Positions 54,637 to 62,640 of a DNA stretch of 64,000 nucleotides are shown piece by piece. Both the position numbers and the translations under genes were made by a program. The number at the start of each line of letters is the position of its first letter. The first letter of the stretch is position 1. The stretch comes from a virus. Under the pieces are notes generated by a model. That model searched no databases. It saw only the letters and a list, made by a program, of their open reading frames with translations, and was not told the DNA's origin. The stretch covers positions 62,001 to 126,000 of IMG/VR virus record IMGVR_UViG_3300027782_000025; one strand, given 5' to 3'.

Positions 54637-57135
54637 TCATGATTTTGGTAAATCATGCTCTGTGATATCAGCACCTTGTGATTCAGTGATCGGATGCCCT
54701 TTAGCTCTCATCAATATGTCATAATTTTCCTTAATGACTTCATCCCTGATAGCTTTAGGCACTGACCATTCTACTAATAAATCATTATCTTGGTTTGGAT
54801 CATGAATTATATTAGTCATTGGTTTTGGTTGGTTTCTAGAAAGACCATCCAATTCCTTTGATTCTATTAAATATTCATATTTAGTGTTCAAAGTCTTTGT
54901 ATCGTCATAACTAAATCCGCGCCTCTCATGTATCTTTTCTAAATATGTTCTAACCCTTCCTGACACTTCTTTGCGCTTCATTTCGTTAATCAGCTTTTTA
55001 TGAGCCTTGGCGTCAAAGCCGCCCTCACCAAGCGGCGGTAAACCTCCAGCGTCAGCACCACCAGGAGGAGCACCTGCGTCAGCACCACCAGGAGGAGCAC
55101 CTGCGTCAGCACCACCAACAGGAGGAGCGCCACCTTCAGCACCTTCTGGTGGCGCACCGCCTTCTGGAGGAGCATCACCAGCGCCTTCTAAACCACCCAT
55201 AGCACCGCCGCCGCCGCCACCGCCACCGCCACCGCCACCTCCGCCTTCTTCACCACCTTCTTCGCTTTCAGGAGACTTACTAAGCATTTCTAAATCTTTT
55301 AATTCTTGAATTTCGTCAGGAGTTAGATCGGTAAAATGGGTAACGATCCATTCTTTTGGGAACCAGCCAAGATCTTTAAGATCAGACATTACACCTACTC
55401 TTGTTCTCCAAGATTCGATCCTATATAATTCTTCCATGGCACTAGTAGCGGTAAGTGCTATTTCGAAGCCTTTAAGATCTTCAACAGAAAAACCTTTAAG
55501 TGCTAAATGGACAATAGCCACCTTTGTTAAGCCGTTTGCCACTTCTCTCTGAATATACTGAACGGCTTTAGCGAACTCGCTATGGCTCTGTGATAAGGAT
55601 TTTTCGCTTGACTCTCCAGCACCTTCCCCGATACCTACCCTAGCAAATGGTATTTTCATAGGCGCTACCATCTTCTTTTTAAAATATTCGATATCTGCTA
55701 TTTTATCGACATTTTCACCGCCTTGTAGTATTTCAACATCAGGGCCAGTGCCGTCGCTACGTCTAGGCAGAAAATAATCATCTTCTTGAATTAGAGGACT
55801 ATATCGTTCATCAAAAGAGCCGGTGGTAGGGTTATAAAACCTCTGCCTCTTAAAATTCCTAGCAATCATCTGCATATATTCTGGAACTTCTTTGGGCGGT
55901 ATCATTCCAACAGGTATTATAAACTTGCGTCGTTCCGGTGCTCTTGTGATCCTATAAATCAAAGCGGCATCTTCCATCAACCGCAATTGCTTAAACGCCT
56001 TCCTACCGCCATCTAGTATTGACTTGCCGTAGGGGGCATAAAAGTTTTCAAAATTAGTTAATCGGAGATGCATAACTTGCCAAGGATGCAAGAATATGGG
56101 CTTTGGCCACATGCTATCCATGTGAAAGAATCCAATTAGATCACCATAACGGGTCTCGATCCTTGTGAAGTTATACACATTCATAAACTTAAGAGCCGCT
56201 ACCGATGTGCGGTCAGCGTCAAGCGTTATCTCAAACGGCATATCACCGTACTTGCACAGATACCTAATTGTAGGCCGGCAAAGAGTATCCCAATTTAAGG
56301 TATTATAAAACAGGCTTTCGAGTTCCCGCTTTAGGCGGATCGAACGTGCTCTAATAATTAAAGTGTGTTTACGCTCAGGGTCTACCAAGCTATTATGTAC
56401 TATCAGAAAATTAGGGCCTGTCCCGACAGCAAAGTTATGATGCTCAGGAACCTCTATATCGTATACTTTATCTGCCTTCCCAGCAACTTCTACGGCTTTC
56501 ACTACCTTCTCACCATCTTCTTCGGTCGGTGCATCGATGGGTGTACCGGTTATATCTGCATTAATTATAGTAAAAGAACGTATCCGCTGCCCCGCCTTTA
56601 ATTCAGATGCTCTAACATATTCATCTGTCTCAGTTAAGTAAAGATGCTCAGCAGTATTCGTTATGATGGTGCCATCTTCGAAGATAACTCTAATAGTATC
56701 AACATCAATGCCAGTGACTCTGGCGCCCTTAGCGACAGCTGGAACGAATTTCTGGTTGGCGATATCATACGCTATGACGATGAACTCATGCTCGCTACCG
56801 GCCTGAGCCAATTTTTCTATCGTGATCGTAGATCCATTAACTAATAATATTGGAGTACTACCCACTAAACAGGCTTCATCTGCATATAGATCGAGAGCTA
56901 AGCTTATTTCGCCGGTTTGATCCATCTGCTCATAGTCTTTATATCTCTCTAGGCGATTTATCTGAAGATTTGTTTGGTCTAAAATAGCGGCTTGCTGGTT
57001 AAAATCTAAAAAATCACCACCGGATGTCAATCTATCGAGGTTAGTCTGATCTTGAAAGATCCTTTCCGACTGATATATTCTATTCTGCCTTGTCAGGGCT
57101 CGTAATCTATCGAAAATTAACCAATTGCTAGCCAT
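54637..57135 (-). CDS. portal protein, T4 gp20-like, interrupted by a mini-intein
   Basis: 832 residues including a 160-residue intein (56392-56871). The exteins carry portal landmarks: QTGEISLALDLYADEA before, SLVDPERKHTLIIRAR and LFYNTLNWD after, RRKFIIPVGMIPPKEVPEY and IADIEYFKKKMVAPMKIPFA further on. The C-terminal third is low-complexity: a run of Gly and 27-base repeats encoding Ala-Pro-Pro-Gly-Gly units, unusual for a portal. The portal forms the dodecameric head vertex for DNA packaging. GGAG before ATG 57135 is preferred to TTG 57147. A TGTAAATA element lies upstream. Confidence 0.92.
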   Translation of the reverse strand: MASNWLIFDRLRALTRQNRIYQSERIFQDQTNLDRLTSGGDFLDFNQQAAILDQTNLQINRLERYKDYEQMDQTGEISLALDLYADEACLVGSTPILLVNGSTITIEKLAQAGSEHEFIVIAYDIANQKFVPAVAKGARVTGIDVDTIRVIFEDGTIITNTAEHLYLTETDEYVRASELKAGQRIRSFTIINADITGTPIDAPTEEDGEKVVKAVEVAGKADKVYDIEVPEHHNFAVGTGPNFLIVHNSLVDPERKHTLIIRARSIRLKRELESLFYNTLNWDTLCRPTIRYLCKYGDMPFEITLDADRTSVAALKFMNVYNFTRIETRYGDLIGFFHMDSMWPKPIFLHPWQVMHLRLTNFENFYAPYGKSILDGGRKAFKQLRLMEDAALIYRITRAPERRKFIIPVGMIPPKEVPEYMQMIARNFKRQRFYNPTTGSFDERYSPLIQEDDYFLPRRSDGTGPDVEILQGGENVDKIADIEYFKKKMVAPMKIPFARVGIGEGAGESSEKSLSQSHSEFAKAVQYIQREVANGLTKVAIVHLALKGFSVEDLKGFEIALTATSAMEELYRIESWRTRVGVMSDLKDLGWFPKEWIVTHFTDLTPDEIQELKDLEMLSKSPESEEGGEEGGGGGGGGGGGGGGAMGGLEGAGDAPPEGGAPPEGAEGGAPPVGGADAGAPPGGADAGAPPGGADAGGLPPLGEGGFDAKAHKKLINEMKRKEVSGRVRTYLEKIHERRGFSYDDTKTLNTKYEYLIESKELDGLSRNQPKPMTNIIHDPNQDNDLLVEWSVPKAIRDEVIKENYDILMRAKGHPITESQGADITEHDLPKS
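55055..55108. repeat. 27-bp tandem repeat in the portal tail
   Basis: Two identical 27-base units (55055-55081, 55082-55108) and a diverged third encode Pro/Gly/Ala repeats. About 100 bases on, 55204-55245 is a GCC/ACC triplet run giving a poly-Gly tract. Confidence 0.85.
56392..56871 (-). other. mini-intein inserted in the portal gene
   Basis: 160 residues in frame with the portal. Block A is CLVGSTPILLVNGSTITIEK (Cys1 nucleophile), block B includes ITNTAEHLYLTE with the TxxH motif, block F is KVYDIEVPEHHNFAV and block G ends LIVHN followed by Ser+1. The penultimate His, terminal Asn and Ser+1 are all present, so splicing should work. No LAGLIDADG or HNH domain lies between blocks B and F, so it cannot home by itself. 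Removal joins YADEA to SLVDPER, the conserved portal sequence. Confidence 0.93.
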
Positions 57136-57253: not shown

Positions 57254-59224
57254 TTATTTTCTCTTTTGTCTATAAAATTTAGGAGGCGTAACCAAAGGTC
57301 TACCTCCTACGGAAGGTATAGCTCCAAGCTGATATGTAAATTGATCAAGAACACGCTGAGCTGCTATTTCTGGCAAATCGATTGGCTCCATGCTCATTGG
57401 TATTAACAAGCTCGATCCGCCTTTTTCAATAAACGACTGCTGGTCGACTACACGTTGTTCATCAGTCAATATGGTCGGGCCAACCATCGATCTAAAATCA
57501 GTATTGTGATTAGCTGGTGAGACGATTCCACCATCGTCGATAAAAGCGTCGCTAGTACCGATGAAGGCAAGAGCTGTTGCAATTACTAGATCGTCGAAGT
57601 TGCCTGCACCGTCTTCTGCCTCAGTTTTAGATGTATCCCGCCCTGACTTGTCTCTTTTTCGAACATACGTCTGAAATTGCTTCAGTAACCTCTGAGAATA
57701 AACCCTATATCCTGAGTCATCCTCTCTAATATAATCGATCAGAAATTTATTCATTGTTGGCTTACTAGAAGCAGTTGTCGCATAACCATATGGCGCCACT
57801 TTTAAGGCTCTAGGCCGGCGCTTTTTACCACCTGCTTGTGGCTTATCATTAATGTCTTTACGGCGCCATAATCTGGGATACATAAAATCATGACGCAATG
57901 CATCGATGATAATATCTCCACCATTATTTCGCTCTATAACCGCTAGGGCGTTGTTATAATATCGTCCAATCCTGTCGATATATTTTGCTAATTCCCTCGG
58001 TAATACTCTTGCCATAAATTCAGCAGCTTGCTCCCTGGTGTCGAGATCGAACACCTCTATGGTACTATAATCCCTGCCTTTACCAGTTGCTATATCGACA
58101 CCCATTACATATCGATGAGCTGGTTTGCTTTCTTCCAGTATGATCTTGCCTCTTCGTCTCTCAGGAGACCGGTTTATTGGTTTATGCCATATCCAAAAAC
58201 CCTGATCAGGGTCGATGAAAGAAAAATCAAGCTCGCTAACGACATTATTGGTCGGATGTGTGAAGGTCTGAAGACCATTGACTTTTTCTACAGGCGGTTT
58301 AATCGTTAGAGCAACTGCAGCAAGAGCGTTTTTATCAAGCACGGTGTTACCTGAGCCGATAAAGGCCGCCAATACTTCCTGTTCAAATTTCCAGCCTTCC
58401 CCCTGCTCTTGCAAAGCTTGCCATTGTTCTTCGAGCCAAGGTGACCAATATGGACCATATTTTGATATTTCGGCTTTCCCTGAACATTGACGTAGATTGT
58501 CCCTCGGAGCTATACGCTTCTTATCTAATGATAGCGGGTCAGTATATTCTATAGACCAGTCCATATCCCACCAATTTATAATAATCGGATTAAATGGACT
58601 AACTCCAGCTTCTGCATCTGTCCATGCGCTCCAGTACCAATTACCAACACCATTGCTAGTGCTAATGCAAATAACCGAACCCCCGTGCTGCAAGGTCGGC
58701 CAACCTGCTGCCCATAGGACATCCATATTAGGGATAAACGCGGCCTCATCGATAATATTTAAGGATGCCGCATGGGATCTTAACACTTCTGGATGCGAAG
58801 TAAGAGACTGAATCTTGGAGCCGTTAGGAAAGAATACTTCATGCTCATTTTGCTTCGTAGGAGTCCAGATCTCGCGCATCCAAGGAGGTAAGTTGTTAAA
58901 CAAAAAATAAATATGCTCGCGCAAGAAGGACATTGCATCTTCATTACGTCTTGAGACTATCAAAATGGTCTTATGAGCATTAAACATGGCAAACCAGAGA
59001 GCGAAAGCTCCGGATATCTTTGAGACACCCGCTTGGCGACATTTTCTGAATATGTTAAGTCGGTTTTTTCTAAAGCATGTCAGAGCATGTAACTGGTATT
59101 TAAATGGATCGAAAGGAATAACACCAGCCGAGGGATGCTTAATCTTTCCGAAATTACGCAAAAACCAAGCTACGGATTTTTGGCAACGTTTAATAACTTC
59201 TAATTTAGCTTGTTCTGGCGTCAT
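57254..59224 (-). CDS. terL: terminase large subunit, T4 gp17-like
   Basis: 656 residues. The ATPase half has a deviant Walker A FRKCRQAGVSKI (about 59-70), Walker B SLNIIDEAAF (Asp159, Glu160) and an ISTSNGVGN coupling motif. The nuclease half has YVMGVDIATGKGRDYSTIEV near residue 375, an ALAVIERNNGG strand and GNFDDLVIATALAF, whose aspartates form the RuvC-like metal site. It translocates DNA into the prohead and cuts it. ATGA overlap with the probable small subunit upstream; the portal follows. Confidence 0.95.
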   Translation of the reverse strand: MTPEQAKLEVIKRCQKSVAWFLRNFGKIKHPSAGVIPFDPFKYQLHALTCFRKNRLNIFRKCRQAGVSKISGAFALWFAMFNAHKTILIVSRRNEDAMSFLREHIYFLFNNLPPWMREIWTPTKQNEHEVFFPNGSKIQSLTSHPEVLRSHAASLNIIDEAAFIPNMDVLWAAGWPTLQHGGSVICISTSNGVGNWYWSAWTDAEAGVSPFNPIIINWWDMDWSIEYTDPLSLDKKRIAPRDNLRQCSGKAEISKYGPYWSPWLEEQWQALQEQGEGWKFEQEVLAAFIGSGNTVLDKNALAAVALTIKPPVEKVNGLQTFTHPTNNVVSELDFSFIDPDQGFWIWHKPINRSPERRRGKIILEESKPAHRYVMGVDIATGKGRDYSTIEVFDLDTREQAAEFMARVLPRELAKYIDRIGRYYNNALAVIERNNGGDIIIDALRHDFMYPRLWRRKDINDKPQAGGKKRRPRALKVAPYGYATTASSKPTMNKFLIDYIREDDSGYRVYSQRLLKQFQTYVRKRDKSGRDTSKTEAEDGAGNFDDLVIATALAFIGTSDAFIDDGGIVSPANHNTDFRSMVGPTILTDEQRVVDQQSFIEKGGSSLLIPMSMEPIDLPEIAAQRVLDQFTYQLGAIPSVGGRPLVTPPKFYRQKRK

Positions 59225-61106: not shown

Positions 61107-62640
61107 CTAGTACACCATTCGGAAAGATCACGGTAGACGGATAGCCTATGTGATCTATTATCTTCAACCTTGCTTTAGAGTGGTTATATAGGTATTTGTT
61201 ATTTCGAAAATAAAAATCATATATAACACTCTTTCCGCGTTTATTTAGCCGCAAGGCTCGACCTATTTTTTGCTCGAAATCCGATTGTAATTTACCACCA
61301 GTAGCCACAATCAACCTCTCGCATCCGCCTTTTAAATCCAAACCCCGATTGATTATTTTTCCACCGATAAGAATCTGGAACTTCCTATCCTCAAAGTCCC
61401 TAATTACTTCCCTGCGTGTATTCTTATCAGTCTTACCGAAAATAAAATGTGCTGGATAACCAGCACTATTAAACAATTCGAGCAAACTACGGCCAAGAAC
61501 CTCTCTATCTACTAAAATTAGTACTCCATCACCTTCTGGTAATTTATTAGTAGCTATACGATATATTAAGGAATGAAAATCGGCGTTTTCAACCATAAAA
61601 TCATTTATAGCTATATCATAGGCCGTCGACTCCTTGATATCGCCCAGACCGCCGACACAAAACATCTTGTACTCACAAGGAATAATCCTTCCAAGGCTGG
61701 TTAATAAAGCCCTGTCGACTCTGTGAATAATCGACCCTAGATGCTCCTGCACCACCAAAGCTTCAACCGGCTTAGAAGGATCAGTAGGAGTACCACTAAA
61801 ACCATATCTTCTACGGCCATGAAAGTGATTCCTAAAAAGATTTTTATATGATTCACTGCAAGCCTTGTCGCATTCATCGACTAGTAACATTTCAGCTTTA
61901 TGAATATAATCTAATAATTCATTAGCATTCGCCTTGCGGGTCTCGAATGCTTTAAGCTGATTCTCGAACCTATTGTAACGCTTGGTATATTGGTGTTCAT
62001 CCTCGCCTTTAAGATGCTTGGGCGGTACCGGTGCCGCTTTAGGCGGTGTAAGAGACTGTATCGAACCTACGACAATAGTCTGACCATTCGGCTTATGCCC
62101 AGCATAAAACATCCCTACTTCGTCCTTAATATCTCGTAACAATAAACGTGATCGCGCCTGTTCTACAACAATTGTCTGATCAGCCAGAATGACCGTAGGG
62201 CAGTCGAAGATCTTGCAAATCGCACACGCCACTTCTGTCTTACCGGCGCCAGTTGGTAAAGCAATGATCCCACATTCATTGGTAATCGCTTCTTTTATCG
62301 AAGTCAGCTGGTATTCTTCAAGGGTAATATCTGGTAACATGTCAGGCGTGACGATATCAACAGTCGGTACAGGGTATCTCCAAGCATCTCTTGCATCGGT
62401 TATAGAAAGCGGTAAATTATGCTTCTTACACACTTCGATCACTAGAGCCAACAATGGCCTAGCGATTTTCTTTCTTGAACGATTATATTTTCTATAGACA
62501 CCATCCCATTGCCCTCGCTGGTTAGGATCTATGTAGGTCCCAGGCCTTGAGACGCTGAAAGCCTCCCATAGAACATTATCTTCATGCTGGGTGATGTTTT
62601 CAAAATAAACAAAATTATTGTCGCGTATGATTGCATTCAT
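61048..62640 (-). CDS. SF2 DNA helicase, UvsW-like
   Basis: 530 residues with all SF2 motifs: IIALPTGAGKTEVA (Walker A, 129-135), MLLVDECDKA (DECD box, 255-258), RYGFSGTPTDP (motif III), ILILVDREVLG, then LIGGKIINRGLDLKG and FEQKIGRALRLNKRGKS (motifs V and VI). T4 UvsW has this architecture, with an N-terminal domain of about 100 residues before the helicase core as here. UvsW acts on recombination and origin R-loops, shutting off early origins. Overlaps the gp55-like gene by 59 bases. Confidence 0.88.
   Translation of the reverse strand: MNAIIRDNNFVYFENITQHEDNVLWEAFSVSRPGTYIDPNQRGQWDGVYRKYNRSRKKIARPLLALVIEVCKKHNLPLSITDARDAWRYPVPTVDIVTPDMLPDITLEEYQLTSIKEAITNECGIIALPTGAGKTEVACAICKIFDCPTVILADQTIVVEQARSRLLLRDIKDEVGMFYAGHKPNGQTIVVGSIQSLTPPKAAPVPPKHLKGEDEHQYTKRYNRFENQLKAFETRKANANELLDYIHKAEMLLVDECDKACSESYKNLFRNHFHGRRRYGFSGTPTDPSKPVEALVVQEHLGSIIHRVDRALLTSLGRIIPCEYKMFCVGGLGDIKESTAYDIAINDFMVENADFHSLIYRIATNKLPEGDGVLILVDREVLGRSLLELFNSAGYPAHFIFGKTDKNTRREVIRDFEDRKFQILIGGKIINRGLDLKGGCERLIVATGGKLQSDFEQKIGRALRLNKRGKSVIYDFYFRNNKYLYNHSKARLKIIDHIGYPSTVIFPNGVLDGSELIRSRFKVPSALFGK

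Follow-up and report, generated by a model that had tools for sequence, protein, structure and literature searches.

How can a phage make its portal protein, which starts capsid assembly and passes DNA, from a gene that is interrupted in a highly conserved stretch? This question is raised by the window analysed here, 64,000 nucleotides of viral DNA (positions 62,001 to 126,000 of IMG/VR record IMGVR_UViG_3300027782_000025), in which an earlier note had read the interruption as a mini-intein.

Anatomy and identity of the insert

The interrupted gene lies on the minus strand at 54637..57135 and encodes an 832-aa precursor from an ATG at 57135 (MASNWLIFDR). By its profile match (PF07230, E 2.9e-66) the host ORF is a portal of the T4 type (gp20), and intein-free relatives match the gp20 structure 3ja7 in the PDB with a profile E of 2.6e-41. 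The N-extein (56872..57135, minus strand) comprises 88 aa that end in LALDLYADEA and are continuous with the N-termini of intein-free portals up to an exact junction. The insert follows at 56392..56871 (minus strand, read from 56871 to 56392); its 480 nt, or 160 codons, run from CLVGSTPILL to NFLIVHN and correspond to Cys89 to Asn248 of the precursor. The C-extein (54637..56391, minus strand) contains the 584-aa portal body and the stop codon, and the best PF07230 stretch spans residues 260-614. Near the C-terminus, at about 54950-55300, the gene contains a long low-complexity stretch rich in Gly and Pro, with runs of about 14 Gly, whose length varies between otherwise near-identical relatives. 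The upstream neighbour, a terminase large subunit gene at 57254..59224 (minus strand; PF03237, E 1.5e-5), is a contiguous ORF without an intein.

The insertion point falls in a near-invariant motif, as the earlier note had supposed: among 18 diverse portals, the D and E of YADEA are invariant and the Y and A are conserved in at least 90%. Mapped by eye onto T4 gp20, where the N-terminal alignment is unreliable, the site may fall within the wing domain, towards its N-terminal side.

The insert matches the intein splicing profile PF14890 above cut-off (E 2.8e-9), the sole match to that profile in the 274,625-bp viral record, and also the intein N-terminal model TIGR01445 and the C-terminal model TIGR01443. 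All of the class 1 motifs are present within boundaries that agree exactly with those proposed before. They are the Cys1 codon of block A (56869..56871), the block B sequence TAEH with T73 and H76 (56644..56655), the penultimate His159 and terminal Asn160 of block G (56392..56397, with the Asn codon at 56392-56394) and Ser+1 (56389..56391), all on the minus strand. Cys1, T73, H76, His159 and Asn160 are invariant in an alignment of 31 portal inteins. Most intein-free members of the window's group likewise have Ser at the position of Ser+1, the first C-extein residue and predicted splicing nucleophile. The catalytic roles of these residues are assigned by homology.

AlphaFold2, given the locus alignment, predicts a Hint fold (pLDDT 88.9) in which only residues ~101-120 are uncertain (pLDDT 53-56). 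This short linker, encoded at 56512..56571 on the minus strand, aligns to a gap at the position where three full-length relatives (L019, L092 and L063) have about 220 extra residues, including an HNH domain. No homing endonuclease, HNH or other, was found in the insert by profile search, in line with the earlier note and distinct from a full-length homing intein. The best PDB matches of the model are the Ssp DnaB (1mi8, TMt 0.85), Npu DnaB and Mtu RecA mini-inteins, and among the 50 Foldseek matches listed, all 50 are inteins or intein-like (BIL) domains. The Synechocystis DnaB and Mtu RecA proteins, which are engineered minis, share with the insert the Hint fold, the C1/TxxH/HN residues and class 1 chemistry, splicing of the window's intein being predicted. 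They differ from it in host protein, are 21-24% identical to it in sequence, and the window's intein is a natural one. Matches to "Cake" repeat proteins were set aside as an artefact of weak repeats summed.

Exact removal and the predicted splicing reaction

An IMG/VR scan with the whole portal protein as query returned the best 80 loci. In-frame deletion of the window's intein gives YADEA/SLVDPERKHTLIIR (the slash marks the junction), as in intein-free relatives, and most of the other scanned loci have an uninterrupted YADEA/SLVDPERKHTLIIR or close variants. A systematic count of the fetched portals gives 63 empty sites in the window's portal group; the raw count was 67, of which four (L083, L084, L110 and L111) belong to different portal groups. 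The comparison with intein-free portals that the earlier note had recommended thus restores the portal sequence exactly, and the refuting outcome it had named, homologues in which the segment forms an ordinary domain of the portal, is the opposite of what is seen. Because these homologues are without exactly the window's segment, chance is excluded.

The site is occupied in all nine loci of the window's own clade. Six other members (L002-L007) carry the same intein at 95-100% identity, and two (L008 and L009) carry a related 160-residue intein that is 55-58% identical to the window's, with exteins ~95% identical. The intein and its relatives are known from metagenomic sequences alone. In L019, L092 and L063 the same site holds a full-length intein (383-385 aa), and in L058 a related intein lies 4 residues upstream (ALDLY/C...HN/SDEASLV). 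The HNH_3 profile is above cut-off in L092 and L058 and below it in L019 and L063. The portal proteins of L019 and of L032, an empty relative, are identical over 460 tree columns. Their DNA is 91.7% identical upstream of the site and 96.6% downstream, and a 1,152-bp insertion lies exactly between GAT GAA GCT and AGT CTG GTC. In this pair a full-length relative was either gained or precisely lost at the codon boundary that the window's intein occupies. A further portal with a full-length intein (L051/L093, IMGVR_UViG_3300033149_006707) is missing the N-terminal end of its intein and has a second frameshift downstream; it may be a broken gene or an assembly error.

This distribution also bears on whether the insert could be another kind of Hint-domain protein (pretoxin, BIL or hedgehog-like) or a chimera of assembly. 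A PT-HINT match points that way, at an E of 0.019 that is below cut-off, and the pretoxin reading was rejected. The TIGR intein models and PDB inteins match best, the insert is flanked on either side by parts of a single conserved protein, and 8 other contigs, drawn from several metagenomes, have this insert or a related one at the identical position. Recurrence and exact removal together refute the idea, to which we give almost no chance.

Purifying selection acts on the intein itself. Between the window and L003-L007, dN/dS is 0.018-0.062 at dS 0.08-1.6 (Nei-Gojobori, own script), which indicates that the intein sequence is maintained, a result consistent with splicing being required for the portal. 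Mini-inteins are sometimes inactive, and a degenerate insertion, dead for splicing and tolerated in the portal or merely cleaving, is conceivable on that ground. Such an insertion is very improbable here, given that the catalytic residues are all retained, that dN/dS is 0.02-0.06 despite diverged synonymous sites, and that the insert splits a near-invariant portal motif.

With its gene anatomy, exact removability, predicted Hint fold, conserved catalytic residues and purifying selection, the window's segment is very probably a functional mini-intein that splices by the standard class 1 pathway. Going by general intein chemistry, the 92.5-kDa portal precursor would be translated first, and Cys1 would then attack the Ala88-Cys89 bond in an N-S shift assisted by the TxxH block. 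Attack by Ser+1 would give a branched intermediate, and cyclisation of Asn160, helped by His159, would free the 17-kDa intein (predicted 17.3 kDa). The exteins would be ligated into a portal with the YADEA-SLVDPE stretch intact, able to form the ring; its computed mass of 75.3 kDa agrees with the earlier expectation of a product near 75 kDa.

History of the window's intein

A maximum-likelihood tree of 69 exteins of the window's group (group 1; 460 columns) places the carriers of the window's mini-intein in one clade with support 100/100. The sister of this clade is L092, which carries a full-length intein at the site (modest support, 80/90). Carriers of full-length inteins are dispersed among empty relatives, at four separate points of the tree, a pattern that homing would be expected to give. 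Another mini-intein, of 143 aa (L096), falls elsewhere in the extein tree, so the endonuclease has probably been lost at least twice. The tree and alignments suggest that the window's mini-intein is what remains of a full-length HNH intein, one that would first have homed into this portal position and afterwards shed its endonuclease. It would now be inherited vertically, since deletions that remove an intein precisely are rare and an intein that does not splice should leave the phage without a portal.

Vertical descent may not be simple throughout the clade. Synonymous sites are saturated in the comparison of the window with L008/L009, where the intein is far more diverged than the exteins; faster evolution or replacement may account for this. 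A homing-like conversion tract was sought between the window and L004 and rejected: in two comparisons, low third-position divergence spans codons ~40-460 and is not centred on the intein, which indicates ordinary recombination or recent ancestry. A search of the genome for a trans-acting homing endonuclease returned one small HNH ORF only, without a link to the intein. The free-standing HNH ORF (G000:C1:170817-170942; 131 aa, E 2.3e-7) lies outside the window, ~52 kb from the portal intein.

The insertion site across portal groups

Portal inteins as such are already known, in that six portal genes of mycobacteriophage cluster C1 are listed with inteins (PORT) by Kelley et al. 2016 (PMC5050341). 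This corrects the hint in the earlier note that they had gone unrecorded. Going by that listing, the likeness consists in an intein in a phage portal gene, whereas the window's case concerns a T4-type portal (PF07230) from uncultivated jumbo phages. The open-access literature, which leaves out most subscription journals, yielded no description of a T4-type portal with an intein. The window's portal matches 2,474 phage records, and among the best 40 of these two unannotated huge-phage portals are interrupted; with the intein as query, the phage collection gave four matching records, none of the four annotated as a portal intein. Terminase inteins are described in cyanophage Mic1 (PMC7156551), phage phiCbK (PMC3556154) and mycobacteriophages (PMC5050341), and those of mycobacteriophages tested for cleavage have LAGLIDADG endonucleases (PMC5050341). 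They resemble the window's case as inteins in a conserved DNA-packaging gene and differ from it in residing in the terminase instead of the portal and, for mycobacteriophages, in having LAGLIDADG where the window's relatives have HNH.

A scan with the intein alignment revealed inteins at the same site in portals merely 25-30% identical to the window's. A query built solely from the region beyond the site (alignment A2), and hence free of intein bias, returned the best 80 loci. Across both scans, all 100 sampled loci of this second group with a complete site are occupied, by inteins of 228-234 residues; these loci include overlapping fetches of the same contig and yield 78 distinct intein sequences. 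Sampling took the best 80 per scan, so full occupancy holds for the sample and not for the whole clade. Intein and extein identities are correlated (Mantel r 0.87, p 0.001), which indicates co-inheritance of intein and portal, and 35 of 41 well-supported intein splits recur in the extein tree. No endonuclease match was obtained in the two second-group inteins scanned. The second-group intein has a conserved helical insert (AlphaFold2 pLDDT 94.6) with weak helix-turn-helix matches, and both parts are under purifying selection (median dN/dS 0.17 for the insert and 0.09 for the Hint part). To this group belongs the unannotated record LR756511, from a 595-kb uncultured phage, with an intein at the homologous portal site (FADEA/C...MHN/C). 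Its portal is 29% identical to the window's, and its intein differs in being longer, with the helical insert and Cys+1. Microcystis phage Mel-JY01 represents a third group, in which the portals of 80 of 80 loci are uninterrupted, the query spanning the site and so favouring uninterrupted genes. The YADEA portal site is a recurrent intein hotspot.

Inteins were also met at other positions. The 1387-aa portal ORF of L083 (LR756508, a 484-kb phage) contains three, at GK/C..HN/SVLEG, KQL/C..HN/TLLED and EGK/C..KN/STLSQ, with an HNH-like region in the last. Further portals with two or three inteins are L092:3120-8024, L110:1668-6470, L131 and L138; the first intein of the L092 portal has an HNH endonuclease and the third a LAGLIDADG endonuclease. 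The site YR[IL]/C..AN/TRAPE is common to L092, L131 and L138, and YG[RK]/C..HN/S to L083 and L092, the phages being unrelated. A terminase-like ORF of 1658 aa on a 313-kb contig (L115:3111-8084) has four inteins, one of which splits an apparent Walker A motif (GSIG/SGKST). In Bacillus phage SP-15 (L087), the "hypothetical protein" SP15_022 consists of an apparent N-terminal part of a terminase and a full-length intein (FEV/CLSGDT..FVHN/CVTGGIGLGKS).

Full occupancy without an endonuclease in the second group, together with an extra domain under selection, is unusual, but it could also mean that intein-free alleles with which to recombine no longer exist. One might ask whether redox, temperature, DNA or another cue gates portal maturation through conditional splicing of the mini-intein. 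The Cys1 nucleophile is in principle redox-sensitive, and the endonuclease-less inteins with a selected helical insert in 100 of 100 sampled second-group loci speak for such a role. The authors of the Mic1 study propose TerL inteins as sensors, an untested proposal (PMC7156551). Against this stand the 63 empty sites in relatives from the window's group, which show that the intein is dispensable for the window's portal type and weaken the idea of regulation by a cue there. The usual cycle of homing and degeneration fully explains the pattern of full-length HNH, empty and mini alleles. The link proposed earlier between capsid assembly and a cellular condition is unsupported, and conditional splicing of the window's intein is quite unlikely. 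The always-occupied second group leaves room for a retained intein function there. A broader proposal is that the YADEA site is a conserved intein niche and that in at least one clade the intein, fixed, endonuclease-less, vertically inherited and with a selected helical domain, is obligatory for portal production, possibly by postponing ring formation as a folding aid or as a gate that acts after translation. We regard this as speculative and rather unlikely.

A single protein site presents all stages of an intein's existence: empty, occupied by a full-length HNH intein, reduced to a mini remnant and, in another group, occupied throughout the sample with co-inheritance. Where portal genes serve as phage markers, their annotation may be inflated or split by inteins. 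Inteins are normally patchy in distribution, and whether some persist by serving the host gene becomes testable in the essential portal.
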